From positions 1 through 64,000 of the forward strand of contig CANRAU010000001.1 in assembly GCA_947628665.1 (NCBI GenBank): a stretch of 64,000 nucleotides of DNA, in the 5' to 3' direction. A program made the position numbers and the translations under genes. Below, in pieces: positions 14,619 to 22,801 of this stretch. This stretch comes from an uncultured Clostridia bacterium (GTDB lineage: Bacteria > Bacillota > Clostridia > Oscillospirales > Acutalibacteraceae). Position 1 is the first letter of the stretch. The number at the start of each line of letters is the position of its first letter. The notes under the pieces are model-generated. The model did not search any database, had not been told where the DNA came from, and worked only from the letters and a program-made list of their open reading frames with translations.

Positions 14619-14692
14619 CAGCCGAATATGCGCTTTGTGCCGAGCCCATTTCGGCGCTTTTGGGTGTCAAGAGAAAATATGGAGGCATTTTT

Positions 14693-15559
14693 ATGCTTAA
14701 ACGAATTGTGGTCGGTGTGCTTGCCGCACTGTTTGCCATTCTGATCATTGCGTTCCGCAGTACGCCGGCGCTGTCTATCGTCCTCGCCTTTTTTGCGGGC
14801 GTGGCGGCATTCGAGATCGAACGCTGCGGCAAGCTGCAAAACAAAGCGATCATGGGGGTGAGCGTGGCGTTTGCCGCGCTTGTGCCGCTCTATTATGAAT
14901 ATGCGGCGGAACTGCAAAGTATAGGCGTGCATATCCCCGTATCCGTCGTGGCGACGGTCTACATCCTGCTTTTGTTTATTCTGATGCTGACGGATTACGA
15001 GCATACGAAGTTTGAGGACGTCGCGACGGTCATTTTGGCGTCCGTCCTGATGCCGTGGGCGTTTTCCACGCTGATTTTCTTTAACGACATCGACGCGCGC
15101 TTTCCGGAAGCTTATGACGGGCATTACGGGCTGTTCTTTATTTTGTTCGGCCTGTTCTGCGCGTGGCTTACGGACAGCTTCGCCTATTTTTCGGGGCGTT
15201 TCCTCGGAAAACACAAGCTGTGTCCGAAAATCAGCCCCAAAAAGACGGTGGAGGGCGCTGTGGGCGGCGTACTCGGCTGTGTGCTGAGCTGTGTGATCCT
15301 GTTTGCCATATTCGACAACCGCATCTTTACGATACATAGCATGCGTTATTTAGAGGTCATCCTGCTGTCCGCAGGGCTGTCTGTCATCGGTATGTGCGGG
15401 GACTTAAGCGCCTCCGTCATGAAGCGGAATTTCGGTGTAAAGGATTTCGGCAATTTGTTCCCCGGCCACGGCGGCGTGATGGATCGCTTTGACAGCGCGC
15501 TGTTTGTGCTGGCGGCGCTGTACGCGTCGATTTTGGTGACGCGGACGGTATTTGCATAA
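14693..15559 (+). CDS. cdsA: Phosphatidate cytidylyltransferase
   Basis: A 288-residue integral membrane enzyme that makes CDP-diacylglycerol from phosphatidic acid and CTP, feeding phospholipid synthesis. About eight hydrophobic segments are followed by the family signature near the C-terminus: SASVMKRNFGVKDFGNLFPG, then HGGVMDRFDS. KISPKKTVEGAVGG is also conserved. ATG 14693 follows GGAGG; the open frame begins 11 codons earlier without a site. Confidence 0.94.
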   Translation: MLKRIVVGVLAALFAILIIAFRSTPALSIVLAFFAGVAAFEIERCGKLQNKAIMGVSVAFAALVPLYYEYAAELQSIGVHIPVSVVATVYILLLFILMLTDYEHTKFEDVATVILASVLMPWAFSTLIFFNDIDARFPEAYDGHYGLFFILFGLFCAWLTDSFAYFSGRFLGKHKLCPKISPKKTVEGAVGGVLGCVLSCVILFAIFDNRIFTIHSMRYLEVILLSAGLSVIGMCGDLSASVMKRNFGVKDFGNLFPGHGGVMDRFDSALFVLAALYASILVTRTVFA

Positions 15560-15631
15560 AACCAGAGCGAAAGGAACGCGAACGGGCGCAAAACGATTTT
15601 GCACAAAGCCCGTATCGCACGGCAAAAACGT

Positions 15632-16792
15632 ATGGAAAAGACAAAGGCACTATCCATATTGGGCTCGACCGGCTCTATTGGCGTCCAAAGTCTTGACGTT
15701 GCCCGCAAATGCGGGTATACCGTCGAGGCTTTGACTGCTTATTCGGACACAAAAGGGATGGAAGCGCAGATCCGCGAATTTCACCCGAAAACGGCGGCGA
15801 TGGCGTCCGAAAGTGCGGCGCGGGATTTGCAGGTGCGCGTGGCGGATACCGACACCAAGGTGCTTTCGGGGGAAGAGGGCGTTTGCGCCTGCGCGGCCGA
15901 AAGCGCGGCGGATACGGTACTCAACGCCGTGGTGGGCATGGCGGGGCTGAAACCCACGCTTGCGGCAATCGCGGCACACAAAAAGCTGGCGCTCGCCAAC
16001 AAGGAAACGCTGGTGGCGGGCGGTCAGCTCGTGATGCAGGCGGCGCGCGACAACGGCGTGGCGGTCTTGCCCGTGGATTCCGAGCACTCCGCGATCTTTC
16101 AGGCGCTTCAGGGCGCGCCCGCGAACCGTGCGCTCAAAAAAATCATTTTGACGGCTTCCGGCGGGCCGTTTTTCGGCAAAACGCGCGAAGAACTGCAAAA
16201 CGTGACCGTGGCGGACGCGCTCAACCATCCGAATTGGCATATGGGCGCGAAGATCACGGTGGATTCCGCCACGATGATGAACAAGGGACTGGAGCTTATT
16301 GAGGCGGTTTGGCTGTTTTCGGTTTCGCCCGACGACGTGGAGGTCGTCATTCACCGCGAAAGCATCGTCCATTCCGCAGTCGAGTACACCGACAATTCCG
16401 TGATCGCACAGCTGGGGCTTCCCGATATGCGCATCCCCATTCAGTATGCGCTCACCTACCCCGAACGCTTTGCGTCGCCGGTGGGGGAGTTGTCGCTCGC
16501 CGAGATCGGCAGACTGACCTTTTTTGCACCCGACTATGACGTGTTCCGATGCATAAATCTTTGCAGAACTGCAATAAATAAAGGGGGACTGCTCCCTGCG
16601 GCGGTCAATTCCGCCAACGAGCAGGCAAACGCCATGTTCCGCGCCGGCGAGATCGGGTTTTTGGAGATCGCCGACCGTGTGGAGCGTGTATTTGAAAACG
16701 CGCCGCAGAAAGAGCGGTATACGTTGGAAGATATATTGGAAACCGACCGCTGGGCAAGAGAGGCCGTTCGGGCGGTCGGCGGCAAGAGGTGA
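15632..16792 (+). CDS. dxr: 1-deoxy-D-xylulose-5-phosphate reductoisomerase
   Basis: A 386-residue enzyme of the MEP isoprenoid pathway; it converts DXP to MEP with NADPH. The nucleotide-binding LGSTGSIGVQSLD lies near the N-terminus, followed by LANKETLVAGG, the metal and substrate residues in DSEHSAIFQAL, ASGGPF and NHPNWHMGAKITVDSATMMNKGLE, and the C-terminal NSANEQANAMF helix. ATG 15632 matches the family start; a TTG at 15599 would add 11 residues. Neither has a strong ribosome site. The next gene overlaps its stop codon. Confidence 0.95.
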   Translation: MEKTKALSILGSTGSIGVQSLDVARKCGYTVEALTAYSDTKGMEAQIREFHPKTAAMASESAARDLQVRVADTDTKVLSGEEGVCACAAESAADTVLNAVVGMAGLKPTLAAIAAHKKLALANKETLVAGGQLVMQAARDNGVAVLPVDSEHSAIFQALQGAPANRALKKIILTASGGPFFGKTREELQNVTVADALNHPNWHMGAKITVDSATMMNKGLELIEAVWLFSVSPDDVEVVIHRESIVHSAVEYTDNSVIAQLGLPDMRIPIQYALTYPERFASPVGELSLAEIGRLTFFAPDYDVFRCINLCRTAINKGGLLPAAVNSANEQANAMFRAGEIGFLEIADRVERVFENAPQKERYTLEDILETDRWAREAVRAVGGKR

Positions 16793-17880
16793 GAACGATT
16801 TTACTGCGTATAACATGGGGCGCCGTTTGGGGCAAGGTGTGGACGATCGCCGTCGCCCTGCTGTTTTTCGGTGTCATCATCATGATCCATGAATTCGGGC
16901 ATTTTATCTGCGCGAAGCTGTGTGGCGTGCGGGTCAATGAATTTGCGCTCGGCATGGGTCCTGCGATATTCAAACGTAAAAAAGGCGACACGCAGTATGC
17001 GGTGCGGCTGTTCCCCATCGGCGGATTCGTGGCGATGGAGGGCGAGGACGGGCAGAGCGACGACGCACGCGCGTTTCACAGGAAGCCCGTTTGGCAGAAA
17101 ATTCTGATCGTGGTCGCGGGTGCGACGATGAACCTGATTTTGGGGTTCATTTTGATGATCCTGTTGCTGTCGACCTCTACGGAGCTCATCGGCACGAACA
17201 CCATTAAGGAATTTTACCCCGACGCGGTCAGCGAGCAGTACGGCTTGCAGGCGGGCGACCGCTTTGTGAAGATCGACGGGCATCGCGTCTGGTCGGAGAA
17301 GGATCTGAGCTTTTTGCTGTCCCGCAGTTCGGACGGCGTGTTTGATTTTACGGTCGAGCGCGACGGCGAATTGGTCGAACTGGACGACGTGCATTTTGCG
17401 ACCGAGGAATACGAGGGCATGACGCTCATCCAATATGATTTTGTCATCATCGGCGAGCCGCCGACCGTGTGGCTGGTGCTGAAAAACGCCGTTACGCAGT
17501 CGGCTTCCATCGTGCGCACGGTCTGGCTGAGTTTGTTTGACCTCGTGACGGGGCGTTACGGGATGTCTGTGCTTTCGGGGCCCGTCGGGACGATGGATAT
17601 TATCGCCGATGTGACCGCGCAGGCGGCGTCGTCGGGCAATTTGGAAAATCTCCTGACGATCATGGCGTTTATCACCATCAATGTGGGCGTGGCGAATTTA
17701 CTGCCCCTGCCTGCGCTTGACGGCGGTCGTCTGCTGTTCTTGCTGATCGAGGCCGTGCGCCGCAAACCCGTCAATCCGAAATACGAGGGCTATGTACACG
17801 CGGCGGGTCTGGCGCTTTTGATGCTTTTGATGGTCGTGGTGACCTTTAACGATATTCTGCGCATTGCGCGCGGCGGATAG
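16789..17880 (+). CDS. rseP: RseP-family site-2 zinc metalloprotease
   Basis: A 363-residue intramembrane protease that cleaves anti-sigma factors and remnant signal peptides. The zinc site is IMIHEFGHFICAK (HExxH, about residues 34-38) with the third ligand in LLPLPALDGGRLLFLL near the C-terminus; a PDZ domain sits between (about 125-195: GLQAGDRFVKIDG). Four membrane segments are visible. It starts at GTG 16789, overlapping the dxr stop, so the two are coupled. The start MRTILLRITWG adds about 20 residues before the first membrane helix, slightly more than usual. Confidence 0.93.
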   Translation: MRTILLRITWGAVWGKVWTIAVALLFFGVIIMIHEFGHFICAKLCGVRVNEFALGMGPAIFKRKKGDTQYAVRLFPIGGFVAMEGEDGQSDDARAFHRKPVWQKILIVVAGATMNLILGFILMILLLSTSTELIGTNTIKEFYPDAVSEQYGLQAGDRFVKIDGHRVWSEKDLSFLLSRSSDGVFDFTVERDGELVELDDVHFATEEYEGMTLIQYDFVIIGEPPTVWLVLKNAVTQSASIVRTVWLSLFDLVTGRYGMSVLSGPVGTMDIIADVTAQAASSGNLENLLTIMAFITINVGVANLLPLPALDGGRLLFLLIEAVRRKPVNPKYEGYVHAAGLALLMLLMVVVTFNDILRIARGG

Positions 17881-17893
17881 GAGAAAGGGCTTT

Positions 17894-18946
17894 ATGACGG
17901 AACGCAGAAAATCGAAAGCCGTAAAGGCGGGGAACGTGCAGATCGGCGGTGGCGCGAAGGTCAGCGTACAGTCGATGCTCAACGTGCCTGCGGAGGACGC
18001 AGCGGGCAATGTGCGGCAGGCTGTGGCGCTCGAACAGGCGGGTTGTGAGATCGTGCGCCTGACCGTGCCGAACCGCGAAGCGGTCAAAACGCTTGCGGCG
18101 GTGAAAGAGGCCGTGTCCATCCCCGTGGTCGCCGACATTCATTTTGACTACAAATGCGCGCTCGAAAGCGTGGCGGCGGGCGCGGATAAAATTCGCATCA
18201 ATCCCGGCAACATCGGCGGTGAGGATCGCGTCAAAGCGGTGGCGGACGCCTGCCGGTTACATAACGTACCCATTCGCATCGGTGTGAATTCCGGCTCGCT
18301 CGAAAAGGAGCTTTTGGCGAAATACGGTTCGCCCACGCCCGACGCACTTTGCGAAAGCGCTCTGCGGCACGCGGCGCTTTTGGAAAAATACGATTTTGAC
18401 GACATCGTCATTTCCATGAAGTCCTCCAATGTAGGCCGCATGGTCGAGGCTTACCGCAAAATCGCCGAGCAATGCGTCTATCCGCTGCACGTCGGCGTGA
18501 CCGAGGCGGGGACACAGCACATGGCGCTCGTGAAATCCGCGGCGGGCATCGGCGCACTGCTGCTTGACGGCATCGGCGATACCATCCGCGTTTCCATGAC
18601 CGCCGACCCCACAGAGGAAGTCGCGGCGGGCTTCGATATTTTAAAGGCTGTGGGCTTAAAAACCGATTGTCCGCAAATCGTTTCCTGCCCGACCTGCGGC
18701 AGAACGAAAATTGATTTGATTGCTCTTGCAAACGAAGTCGAACAGCGGCTGAGCGCCTGCAAAAAGCCGATCACCGTAGCCGTGATGGGCTGTGTGGTCA
18801 ACGGCCCGGGCGAAGCGCGCGAGGCCGACATCGGCATTGCGGGCGGGGACGGCTGCGGGCTGCTGTTTCGGCACGGCGAGGTGCTTCGCAAAGTGCCCGA
18901 AAACGAGATCGTAGACGCTTTGCTTGCCGAAATTGAAAAAATCTGA
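17894..18946 (+). CDS. ispG: 4-hydroxy-3-methylbut-2-enyl diphosphate synthase
   Basis: A 350-residue iron-sulfur enzyme of the MEP pathway (GcpE). An N-terminal TIM barrel (VSVQSMLNVPAED, PVVADIHFDYKCAL, KIRINPGNIGG) and a C-terminal domain with the 4Fe-4S ligands CPTCGRTKIDL and VMGCVVNGPGEA are complete. The length is that of the bacterial form. ATG 17894 follows a GAGAAAGGG site. It is the second MEP pathway gene in the operon, two genes after dxr. Confidence 0.95.
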   Translation: MTERRKSKAVKAGNVQIGGGAKVSVQSMLNVPAEDAAGNVRQAVALEQAGCEIVRLTVPNREAVKTLAAVKEAVSIPVVADIHFDYKCALESVAAGADKIRINPGNIGGEDRVKAVADACRLHNVPIRIGVNSGSLEKELLAKYGSPTPDALCESALRHAALLEKYDFDDIVISMKSSNVGRMVEAYRKIAEQCVYPLHVGVTEAGTQHMALVKSAAGIGALLLDGIGDTIRVSMTADPTEEVAAGFDILKAVGLKTDCPQIVSCPTCGRTKIDLIALANEVEQRLSACKKPITVAVMGCVVNGPGEAREADIGIAGGDGCGLLFRHGEVLRKVPENEIVDALLAEIEKI

Positions 18947-18961
18947 ACCGACGGGAATCCT

Positions 18962-21900
18962 ATGACGAATTTTTACGAGCTTTTTCCGGAGTGCCAGGAC
19001 GCGCTCCAAACCTATGACGCGGTGCTTCGCACGGCGCAAATTGAATCCTTGGAGCATAACACCGAGCAGGGCGAGCTTATGGTGACGGTGCGGTTTGCGC
19101 GTTTGGTTTCGAGCCGTTCGTTAGGGGCAATCGAGGCGGCGCTGACCGAGCATCTCGGCGGTGCGGCGCAGGTGCGCATTTTGCCGAAATTTGACGCTTC
19201 GCTCTTAGGTGCAAAATACGTTTCGGAGCTTATCCTTTATCTCAAAAAGCAGATCGCGGTGGCCAACGGCTTTTTGGACGACAGCGAATGGACGTTTGAA
19301 GGCGCGCTTGTCACGGTGACCTTGCAGCACGGCGGCCGTTCGATTTTGGAGGACGCGCAATGCCAAAAGGCGATAGAGGACTGCATCGAGGCGCGATTTG
19401 ATACGCGCGTACACGTCGAATTTGACGAATTGCAGATCGACATTGAACAGGAATTGCAGGCCGTCCAGCGGGATTTGGATCGGCAGCAGCTCGAACAGGC
19501 CGCCGCGGCGGCGGTCGAGCGGCAGTATGCGTCCGGCGCAAAGGTGCAAAAGCCGGAGAACGGGGCGCAGGACGGCGCGCCGCAGCAGGCGCATATCGTC
19601 AAGGAAGGCGTTCCCTATTATTTGGAGAGCGTCAAGCCGATTTTCGGCAACGTGATCCGCAAAGACCCCATTCCGATCGCAGATATTGAACTGCCCGAGG
19701 AGGGCGAGGAGAACGCCGTTACCGTTTGGGGACGCATTTTCGGCTTCGAGGAGCATACCAGCAAAAAGGGACGCCACAAAATCATCCATTTCTATATCAC
19801 CGACAATACATATTCCTTCACGGTGGCGACGGTACTCAAAATCGAATTGAGCGAGGAACTGCTGGACAAGCTGCACGACGGCGTACACGTACTGCTTAGC
19901 GGGAACGTGAAGTATGACGCCTACCGGCAGGAACATGTGATCGAGCCGCGCGCCATCAGCACCGTGCAAAAAATCGAAAAAGAGGACAACGCGCCCAAAA
20001 AGCGTGTGGAACTGCATCTGCATACCAATATGTCGCAAATGGACGGTATGACCCCCGCGAAGAAGCTGGTGGAACGCGCCATACGCTGGGGGCATAAGGC
20101 GATCGCCATTACCGACCATGGCTGTGTGCAGAGCTTCCCCGACGCCATGAACGCCGCCAAGGGAAAAATCAAGATCATTTACGGCGTGGAAGCGTATTTT
20201 ATAGACGATCTGAAAGAGCCCGATAAAAACTACAAGGAACTGCGCTCGTATCACCAGATCATTTTGGTCAAGAATGCGACGGGGCTGAAAAACCTTTATC
20301 AGCTCATCTCCATGTCGAATACGAATTATTTCTATAAGCGTCCGCGTACGCCGAAATCGGAGCTGATCAAGCACCGCGAGGGGCTGATCATCGGCTCTGC
20401 GTGCGAGGCGGGGGAATTGTACCGCGCGGTGCTGGAGGAACGCCCCGAAGCGGAAATTATGGAGATCGCGCGCTTTTATGATTATCTTGAGATCCAGCCC
20501 ACGGGCAACAACCGCTTTATGATCGCGTCGCACAGCGACCCCAACGCCAAAAATCCCGACCGCAACCGTGAATTTGACAAAATCACCTGCGAAGCGGATA
20601 TTGAAAACGTCAACCGTAAAATCATAGCGATCGCCGACAAATTGGGCAAGCCCGTCGTCGCGACCTGCGACGTGCATTTTATCGATCCGGAGGACGCGAA
20701 GTTCCGCGCCGTTTTAATGGCGGCGCAGAAATACAGCGATGCGGACAACCAAGCGCCGCTGTACTTCCGCACTACGCAGGAGATGCTCGACGAATTTGCC
20801 TATCTCGGCGAGGAAACCGCGCGGGAGATCGTGATCGACAATCCCAACAAGATCGCCGATATGGTCGAGGAACTGCGCCCCTTCCCCGACGGTACATATC
20901 AGCCGTCCATTCCCGGCAGTGAGGAACAGCTGCGCGAAATTTGCTGGAGCAAGGCAAAGGAATGGTACGAGTACCAAGGCGAAATCCCCGAAATTGTTTC
21001 TTCGCGCCTGAAACGCGAGTTGGAGTCCGTGATCGAAAACGGATTTGCCGTGCTGTATATCATCGCGCAAAAGCTGGTCTGGGATTCGGAGGCGCACGGC
21101 TACCACGTCGGCTCGCGAGGGTCGGTCGGTTCGTCCTTTGTGGCGACTATGGCGGGCATTTCCGAGGTGAACCCCTTAGCGCCGCATTACCGCTGTCCGC
21201 ATTGCCGCTATTCCGAATTTTATACACACGGCGAATACCAGTCGGGCTTTGATATGCCGCCGAAGGATTGCCCGCATTGCGGCACGCCGATGATCCGCGA
21301 CGGACATGAAATTCCGTTTGAGACGTTCCTCGGCTTCCACGGCGACAAAGCACCCGATATAGACCTCAATTTCTCGGGCGAATACCAGGGTAAGGCGCAC
21401 CGCTACACCGAGGAACTGTTTGGCAGCTCGCACGTATTCAAGGCGGGTACGATCGCCACCGTGGCGGATAAAACGGCTTACGGCTATGTGAAAAACTATT
21501 TGGAAGAGCGTTCGCTGCACGTCAACCGCGCCGAAGAACAGCGGCTGACCGATGGGTGTACGGGCGTCAAGCGCACCACGGGACAGCACCCCGGCGGCAT
21601 GGTCGTTGTGCCGAACGAATATGACGTATGTGATTTCACACCCGTGCAGTATCCGGCGGACGACACCGAAAGCGATATGGAGACGACGCATTTCGATTTC
21701 CATTCCCTGCACGACACGATTTTAAAGCTGGACATTCTCGGCCACGATGTGCCCACGCTCTATAAGCATTTGGAGGATATGACGGGCATCAATGTGATGG
21801 ATGTGGACGTCTGTGACCCGAATATCATTAAGCTCTGCACCAGCCCCGAACCGCTGGGCGTGACCGAGGAGGATATTCAATGGAAAACGGGTACGCTGTC

Positions 21901-22801
21901 CATCCCCGAAATGGGTACGCCCTTCGTCTGCCAAATGCTTTTGGAGGCGCAGCCCAAGACGTTCTCCGACCTTTTGCAGATCTCGGGTCTGTCGCACGGC
22001 ACGGACGTTTGGACGGGCAACGCGCAGGATCTCATTCGCAATAAGACCTGCGACATTTCCGAAGTGATCGGTACGCGTGACAGCATTATGGTGTACCTGA
22101 TCCACAAGGGGCTGGACTCCGGTCTTGCCTTCAACATCATGGAAAAGACCCGTAAGGGCATTGTCGCCAAAATAGGCTTTCCCGAGGGCGCAGAAGAGGC
22201 CATGCGCGCCTGTAATGTCCCCGAGTGGTATATGGATTCCTGCCGCAAGATCAAGTATATGTTCCCCAAAGCCCATGCGGCGGCATATGTCATTGCGGCG
22301 CTGCGGCTCGGATGGTACAAAATTTATCGGCCGCTGGAATATTATGCGGCGTTTCTGACCGTACGCGGCGGCGATTTGGACGCGGCGACCGTTGTGCAGG
22401 GGCATGCGGCGGTGCGCGCGCGGCTCGATCTGCTCAACGGCAAAATCAGGGACAAATCCGCCACGGCCAAGGAAAAAGAACAGTTTACCGCCATGCAGGT
22501 GGTCAATGAAATGATGGCGCGCGGTGTGGAGCTTTTGGGCGTGGACGTATACAAGTCCAAAGCCACGGCATACACCTTAGAGGACGGCAAAATTCGTCTG
22601 CCGTTCAGCGCCCTTTCGGGCATCGGCGACAGCGCGGCATACCCCTTGGAAGCGGCGCGCAGCGACGGCGAGGGCGAATTCCTCTCCATCGACGATTTTG
22701 CACGGCGCGCCAAGGCGGGCAAGAGCATTGTGGAAATGCTCGAAGCCTGCGGGGCGTTCGGCAATATGCCCAAAACCACGCAGCTTTCCCTGTTTTCCTG
22801 A
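18962..22801 (+). CDS. polC: PolC-type DNA polymerase III alpha subunit lacking the exonuclease insert
   Basis: A 1279-residue PolC, the main replicase of low-GC Gram-positives. Order: N-terminal domain; OB domain (about 225-340); PHP domain with ELHLHTNMSQMDG (about 350); polymerase with zinc ribbon YRCPHCRY...CPHCGTP (about 743-775) and catalytic PDIDLNFSGEYQ (about 798); C-terminal clamp motif QLSLF. In canonical PolC a DEDD proofreading exonuclease of about 170 residues interrupts the PHP domain (FDxETTG motif). Here the PHP passes straight from YGVEAYFIDDLKEPDKN to YKELRSYHQIILVKNATGLKN (about residues 408-440), and no exonuclease motif exists anywhere; the shortfall in length matches the missing domain. 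It ends the pyrH operon. Confidence 0.95.
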   Translation: MTNFYELFPECQDALQTYDAVLRTAQIESLEHNTEQGELMVTVRFARLVSSRSLGAIEAALTEHLGGAAQVRILPKFDASLLGAKYVSELILYLKKQIAVANGFLDDSEWTFEGALVTVTLQHGGRSILEDAQCQKAIEDCIEARFDTRVHVEFDELQIDIEQELQAVQRDLDRQQLEQAAAAAVERQYASGAKVQKPENGAQDGAPQQAHIVKEGVPYYLESVKPIFGNVIRKDPIPIADIELPEEGEENAVTVWGRIFGFEEHTSKKGRHKIIHFYITDNTYSFTVATVLKIELSEELLDKLHDGVHVLLSGNVKYDAYRQEHVIEPRAISTVQKIEKEDNAPKKRVELHLHTNMSQMDGMTPAKKLVERAIRWGHKAIAITDHGCVQSFPDAMNAAKGKIKIIYGVEAYFIDDLKEPDKNYKELRSYHQIILVKNATGLKNLYQLISMSNTNYFYKRPRTPKSELIKHREGLIIGSACEAGELYRAVLEERPEAEIMEIARFYDYLEIQPTGNNRFMIASHSDPNAKNPDRNREFDKITCEADIENVNRKIIAIADKLGKPVVATCDVHFIDPEDAKFRAVLMAAQKYSDADNQAPLYFRTTQEMLDEFAYLGEETAREIVIDNPNKIADMVEELRPFPDGTYQPSIPGSEEQLREICWSKAKEWYEYQGEIPEIVSSRLKRELESVIENGFAVLYIIAQKLVWDSEAHGYHVGSRGSVGSSFVATMAGISEVNPLAPHYRCPHCRYSEFYTHGEYQSGFDMPPKDCPHCGTPMIRDGHEIPFETFLGFHGDKAPDIDLNFSGEYQGKAHRYTEELFGSSHVFKAGTIATVADKTAYGYVKNYLEERSLHVNRAEEQRLTDGCTGVKRTTGQHPGGMVVVPNEYDVCDFTPVQYPADDTESDMETTHFDFHSLHDTILKLDILGHDVPTLYKHLEDMTGINVMDVDVCDPNIIKLCTSPEPLGVTEEDIQWKTGTLSIPEMGTPFVCQMLLEAQPKTFSDLLQISGLSHGTDVWTGNAQDLIRNKTCDISEVIGTRDSIMVYLIHKGLDSGLAFNIMEKTRKGIVAKIGFPEGAEEAMRACNVPEWYMDSCRKIKYMFPKAHAAAYVIAALRLGWYKIYRPLEYYAAFLTVRGGDLDAATVVQGHAAVRARLDLLNGKIRDKSATAKEKEQFTAMQVVNEMMARGVELLGVDVYKSKATAYTLEDGKIRLPFSALSGIGDSAAYPLEAARSDGEGEFLSIDDFARRAKAGKSIVEMLEACGAFGNMPKTTQLSLFS

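Follow-up and report, generated by a model that had tools for sequence, protein, structure and literature searches.

A PolC replicase without its DEDDh exonuclease in an uncultured clostridium from a lineage in which such enzymes are common

The stretch of DNA analysed here (the window, 64,000 nucleotides from an uncultured Clostridia bacterium) encodes a PolC-type replicase that a first-pass annotation had described as complete except for the DEDD proofreading exonuclease usually set into its PHP domain. If this description is right, two questions follow: whether the domain is truly missing from the gene, and what would then proofread for the enzyme. The analysis shows that the domain has truly and cleanly been lost; losses of this kind have been published before and are common in this lineage.

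The polC gene and the joint in place of the exonuclease

The polC gene is an unbroken open reading frame that encodes a complete PolC (Table 1). The reading frame, Pfam and an alignment of 120 PolC sequences together confirm an otherwise complete enzyme that lacks the DEDD exonuclease. Pfam recognised PolC N-terminal domain II, the PHP, polymerase and finger domains and HHH_6 in the protein, with no match to the RNase_T exonuclease. The zinc ribbon, PDIDLNF and the QLSLF motif, which we take to be clamp-binding, are present as annotated. The protein exceeds the PolC equivalog cut-offs of NF001688 (1468 bits; cut-off 873) and TIGR01405 (1326.6; cut-off 1043.45), and it carries the PolC-specific N-terminal domain (PF11490); a DEDDh Exo domain within the PHP domain, usual in the PolC type but not universal, is missing. 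The NCBIfam PolC model was matched in two stretches, at model positions 6-174 and 372-1211 of 1211, and because the match skips the positions between 174 and 372, the Exo part is absent from the window PolC. Among solved structures, the best sequence matches are Geobacillus PolC 3F2B and entry 9QPC, a PolC from E. faecium according to the available part of PMC12592400.

Table 1. Features of the polC locus, in window positions.
Feature	Position	Strand	Evidence
polC: DNA polymerase III alpha, PolC type, without DEDDh Exo domain, 1279 aa	18962..22801	+	ORF, Pfam, NCBIfam, solved-structure sequence match
PolC N-terminal domain II, PF11490, residues 85-197	19214..19552	+	Pfam
Region upstream of the PHP domain, aligns with the start of Geobacillus PolC 3F2B (limits approximate); presumably OB fold	19664..20005	+	
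PHP domain, first half, ligands H352, H354, D361, H386, E410	20006..20191	+	alignment
Joint AYFIDDLKEPDKNYKELRSY, residues 411-430, at the exonuclease site of Exo-bearing relatives	20192..20251	+	alignment; model predicts short link between two PHP strands
PHP domain, second half, ligands H431, C481, D570, H572	20252..20680	+	alignment
Polymerase and finger domains	20927..22159	+	Pfam, motif positions
Zinc ribbon with CPHC pairs	21194-21289	+	motif position
PDIDLNF (residue 798)	21353-21373	+	motif position
LDILGHD	21728-21748	+	motif position
HHH_6 helix-hairpin-helix, residues 1188-1271	22523..22774	+	Pfam
QLSLF, C-terminal, residue 1274	22781..22795	+	motif position
Upstream genes: phosphatidate cytidylyltransferase-like (under curated cut-off), dxr, rseP, ispG	14660..18946	+	

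One PolC was found in the genome; the other C-family match is DnaE, so that the Exo-less PolC has a partner DnaE1 (frame of 1181 aa, contig C4). Downstream of polC lie hisZ, hisG, hisD and hisC, and the dxr/rseP/ispG neighbourhood is, we assume, the usual chromosomal setting of polC. In this gut clostridium near Candidatus Fimenecus, the enzyme is an ordinary chromosomal PolC present as a single copy. Antisense to polC runs a 490-aa open frame (19205-20677, minus strand), presumably a by-product of codon usage.

The PHP domain had been read as running straight from YGVEAYFIDD to ATGLKN, and the sole sequence between YGVEAYFIDD (20180-20209) and NATGLKN (20273-20293) is indeed LKEPDKNYKELRSYHQIILVK. 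From E410 to H431 the window protein has 21 residues, counted with E410 included (20 residues in between), compared with about 213 in Exo-bearing PolC of related genera, which have an otherwise identical domain set and are at closest about 59-64% identical to it. In one of these (L103), EAYFIDDL is followed by the exonuclease and then by DFKKLPAYH; the window counterpart is EAYFIDDLKEPDKNYKELRSYH. Across the 120-row alignment, made without nine loci (DnaE rows, fragments or split rows, and one duplicate), the stretch falls into two size classes, of 11-40 residues (63 rows, the value 11 coming from a truncated row) and of 198-217 residues (57 rows). The gap between the classes, about 190 residues, is near the size of about 170 originally given for the exonuclease. 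Nine named relatives, with 71-82% identity to the window PolC, have the same 21-residue joint; the stretch measures 20-40 residues in the other untruncated Exo-less rows and 17-58 residues in ten Exo-less PolC from other families.

The available part of PMC12592400 places the exonuclease of PolC between PHP strands 3 and 4. A predicted model of the window PolC (mean pLDDT 84.3, pTM 0.73) has a closed PHP domain in which two strands (model residues 205-215 and 231-237; model numbers are protein numbers minus 199) are connected by a short link, and mean pLDDT in the link region is 88-91 per ten residues. We conclude that the inserted DEDDh exonuclease has been lost and that the flanking PHP strands are joined via a short loop. 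That an assembly collapse or a frameshift made the Exo-less frame is practically ruled out, because the same joint is found in the nine named close relatives, which come from other records, the frame is unbroken, and short stretches recur in the further Exo-less rows and in other families; the deletion is clean and in frame, as first annotated.

Occurrence and number of losses

The rarity that the first-pass annotation implied does not hold. Exo-less PolC was described by Timinskas et al. 2013 (PMC3919608), and in the available part of that paper it makes up 6% of PolC, and 16% in the group with both PolC and DnaE1. It is reported there from Clostridia and Negativicutes, except for one extra copy in Thermotogae; the proteins are still classed as PolC, and the PHP metal site is conserved in the PolC group. 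The window enzyme is like these in having no Exo in its PHP domain, in its pairing with DnaE1, in its origin in Clostridia and in its conserved PHP site, and differs in coming from an uncultured lineage near Candidatus Fimenecus. A literature search on PolC and exonuclease in Oscillospirales found no paper, and a search on the absent exonuclease gave no title about this lineage among the matches listed. The kind of enzyme is thus already published and is common in the window's family, of which the window provides a further member; the present analysis adds a count of changes on a tree, a survey of exonucleases and a comparison by RpoB.

Among 100 genomes of the window's family, 33 are Exo-less, 52 are Exo-bearing and 15 have no strong PolC match, with some fragments among them, so the Exo-less share of PolC-bearing genomes is 33/85. 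A class-wide sample gave 21 Exo-less genomes, from nine family codes, among 130 with a PolC row (16%), and an order sample gave 13 of 109. All of these tallies were read from match limits and frame lengths; ten Exo-less cases beyond the window's family were verified by sequence.

In five further genomes of the class-wide sample, from families f54 and f57, the match is odd; the four whose sequences were retrieved all have unrelated insertions. In the two from f57 (L196, L197), PolC is about 1650 aa long with 328 residues at the Exo position; neither insert matched the Exo profile, and that of L196 had no Pfam match. The 151-162 residues at this position in the two from f54 (L198, L199), which likewise did not match the Exo profile, may be what is left of a decayed exonuclease; in the class survey, two more f54 genomes lack a PolC row. 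Tests of the f54 and f57 insertions for descent from Exo gave no match by HMMER or hhalign (two sequences each) or by Pfam (one each). Second, shorter PolC-like frames of 794-900 aa, matching only the post-Exo part, occur in three genomes (L065, at G073:C16; G127:C9; G193:C52).

We counted changes on a tree of 95 PolC from which the Exo columns and the columns before residue 235 were removed, and which left out six truncated rows, the long-branched Exo-less L066 (G069) and 38 near-duplicates. The tree has 11 changes with the odd insertions scored as Exo-less, 10 without the four odd rows and nine forced by well-supported branches, and a first tree (FastTree, 114 rows, six truncated rows left out) has six, counts that cannot by themselves tell loss from gain. 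We infer loss, since Exo occupies the same position in the Bacilli outgroup and in most other families. The Exo-less rows of the window's family fall into four groups: one of 24 rows that includes the window, two of 9 and 4 rows, and G091 by itself. However, an RpoB tree places the Exo-bearing G009 and G002 inside the window's group and G041/G046 apart from G086/G093; since its groups partly differ from those of the PolC tree, the exact number of losses is uncertain. The DEDDh exonuclease has apparently been lost many times in Clostridia.

The PHP metal site and remaining proofreaders

All nine PHP ligands of the pattern HHDHEH[C/H]DH are kept in the window PolC (residues 352, 354, 361, 386, 410, 431, 481, 570 and 572). 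The alignment has HHDHEHCDH in 61 of the 61 Exo-less rows in which all nine positions are readable, two more rows being truncated, and a complete set in 56 of 57 Exo-bearing rows; the row with an incomplete set is from Bacilli. The set is also complete in all 20 PolC taken from other families, of which 10 are Exo-less, 6 are Exo-bearing and 4 carry odd insertions, and in all 20 DnaE1 examined, half from Exo-less genomes, the window's own included, and half from Exo-bearing ones. The PHP domain of C-family enzymes can be kept for structure. As the ligands are equally intact in Exo-bearing Clostridia, their conservation is no proof that PHP has taken over proofreading.

According to the available part of PMC5636811, in Geobacillus PolC the exonuclease is set into a PHP loop whose length is 18 residues in the Taq and 29 in the Mtb polymerase, in both of which PHP is active, and 9 in that of E. 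coli, in which it is inactive; Geobacillus PolC has one PHP ligand mutated and no PHP exonuclease. In contrast to Geobacillus PolC, the window PolC has a short loop, whose limits may be counted differently, and all ligands. The best fold match of our predicted model is 3F2C (TM 0.93 by target length, 0.86 by query length). This engineered Geobacillus kaustophilus PolC (3F2B/3F2C) is 49% identical to the window PolC, starts at about its residue 235, and likewise has a short linker and no exonuclease. However, its exonuclease was cut out by engineering for crystallisation (available part of PMC12592400) and one PHP ligand is mutated (PMC5636811, likewise in part), whereas the window PolC combines a natural loss with a full set of ligands. 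Mycobacterium tuberculosis DnaE1 also has nine PHP ligands, a short PHP loop and no DEDD exonuclease, but it is of the DnaE type and its PHP activity has been measured, as far as the available part of PMC5636811 goes, whereas that of the window PolC is predicted.

The most probable explanation, in our judgement, is that one redundant proofreader was lost while the PHP exonuclease, a putative activity read from sequence, and mismatch repair remain. In Clostridia there would be several redundant proofreaders, the DEDDh exonuclease among them, which would have allowed its loss; the zinc-dependent PHP exonuclease of PolC, of DnaE1 or of both would now proofread, backed by mismatch repair. The first-pass annotation had offered proofreading in trans or by PHP, and PHP is the best supported of its options because all nine ligands are intact in both PolC and DnaE1. 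For the loss of a redundant proofreader we count the 6 of 29 Exo-less genomes without an RNase_T match at E<=0.01; MutS1 is found at E<=1e-60 in 58 of 59 genomes, the window's own included. Against it we count the longer RpoB branches in Exo-less groups described below, which would fit incomplete compensation.

In these enzymes nature has repeatedly deleted a proofreading domain of the replicase, and close Exo-bearing relatives can serve as controls. The working of the PolC and DnaE1 system is called open in the available part of PMC3919608, and Exo-less PolC enzymes allow a direct test of whether PHP alone suffices for PolC fidelity.

Mutation rate, demotion of PolC and exonucleases in trans

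A higher mutation rate, the other option of the first-pass annotation, is hinted at by RpoB branch lengths, which fall short of a demonstration. If the loss were uncompensated, Exo-less lineages would tolerate a raised rate, which we consider unlikely. With RpoB as an independent gene, the Exo-less group lies farther from the shared ancestor in six of seven contrasts (ratios 1.50, 2.38, 1.88, 1.32, 1.21, 0.93 and 1.25; median 1.32; Wilcoxon p = 0.031), but a sign test gave p = 0.125, and an eighth contrast (f27/f53), strongly opposite, was discarded as other tips lay inside it. In the RpoB set G071 and G246 had no match, G155 was dropped for a wrong frame, and several frames were partial. Root-to-tip paths of DnaE1 and PolC are also longer in the Exo-less among 17 genomes, and PolC branch lengths point the same way in three of four family contrasts, G091 versus G084 being opposite. 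Median genome size is 1.8 Mb in 29 Exo-less and 2.35 Mb in 30 Exo-bearing genomes, kinship not corrected. However, protein branch length is a poor proxy for mutation rate, some of the contrast groups, which were defined on the PolC tree, do not form clean sister clades in RpoB trees, and in the three larger family contrasts the Exo-less genomes are also smaller, so that drift and genome reduction are confounded with it. The faster RpoB evolution of Exo-less groups is thus a suggestive but confounded lead. Tentatively, it could be taken further: Clostridia would repeatedly strip the DEDDh proofreader from their replicase, PHP would be the sole replicative proofreader in small genomes that keep no recognisable DEDDh RNase_T (G041, G046, G086 and G093), and faster genome-wide protein evolution would mark a convergent change in mutation rate.

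About as doubtful as an uncompensated loss is a demotion of PolC, an idea raised for bacteria with PolC and DnaE1 in the available part of Timinskas 2013 (PMC3919608). DnaE1 would copy most of the chromosome and PolC proofreading would be minor, so that the exonuclease, and sometimes PolC itself, is lost. Seven of the 15 family genomes without a strong PolC match are at least 90% complete, and eight of nine genomes of order family f9 have no PolC match at E<=1e-70, the ninth having a broken fragment only; those seven and these eight, all at least 90% complete, apparently rely on DnaE1 alone. The PolC/DnaE1 distance ratio is 1.21 between Exo-less (45 pairs) and 1.12 between Exo-bearing genomes (21 pairs), but the difference is smaller than one standard deviation, and the ratio for mixed pairs is 1.25. 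Moreover, the window PolC has kept its polymerase, zinc, clamp and PHP residues, its gene lies in the usual setting, and a DnaE1 partner of this kind is also present in the 10 Exo-bearing genomes that were examined.

Proofreading of PolC in trans by a separate DEDDh exonuclease is less likely still. The candidate is a 295-aa protein on contig C4, about 7 kb from dnaE1; it is the sole RNase_T protein in the genome at E<=10 and is KapD-like by rank, under that model's cut-off. A search of the genome with the DnaQ profile TIGR00573 gave no match at E<=10, so the suggestion of DnaQ in trans finds no support. That profile detects the PolC Exo of three Exo-bearing relatives and has matches in 10 of 14 control genomes; it misses the KapD-like protein, and remote DnaQ relatives could escape it.

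The search for exonucleases covered 66 of the 100 family genomes (29 Exo-less, 30 Exo-bearing and 7 without PolC). KapD-like proteins occur in 22/29 Exo-less and 25/30 Exo-bearing genomes (p = 0.53); they were labelled by sequence score in the 22 Exo-less genomes and G009, and only by ORF length and rank in the remaining 24 Exo-bearing ones. Compensation by this exonuclease is unsupported since it is not enriched in the Exo-less. Stand-alone DnaQ-like proteins occur in 6/29 Exo-less and 2/30 Exo-bearing genomes, the latter two (G001, G077) identified by ORF length only, and the difference is not significant (p = 0.15). This count excludes a match in Exo-less G047 and one of two extra matches in Exo-bearing G001, both of which look to us like Cas2-DnaQ fusions; with the likely fusion of G047 included, the Exo-less count becomes 7/29 (p = 0.08). 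Six of the 29 Exo-less genomes have neither a KapD-like nor a DnaQ-like protein, and none of these six, which are those without RNase_T, matches TIGR00573 at E<=10.

Four small Exo-less genomes of 1.0-1.4 Mb (G041, G046, G086 and G093) have no RNase_T match at E<=0.01; they form one clade in the PolC tree and not in the RpoB tree, and G086 in addition lacks a MutS1 match at E<=1e-60. Among the seven genomes at least 90% complete whose PolC match is not strong (G008, G037, G043, G044, G056, G076 and G080), three (G043, G076 and G080) have a stand-alone exonuclease with a high score against the PolC Exo profile.
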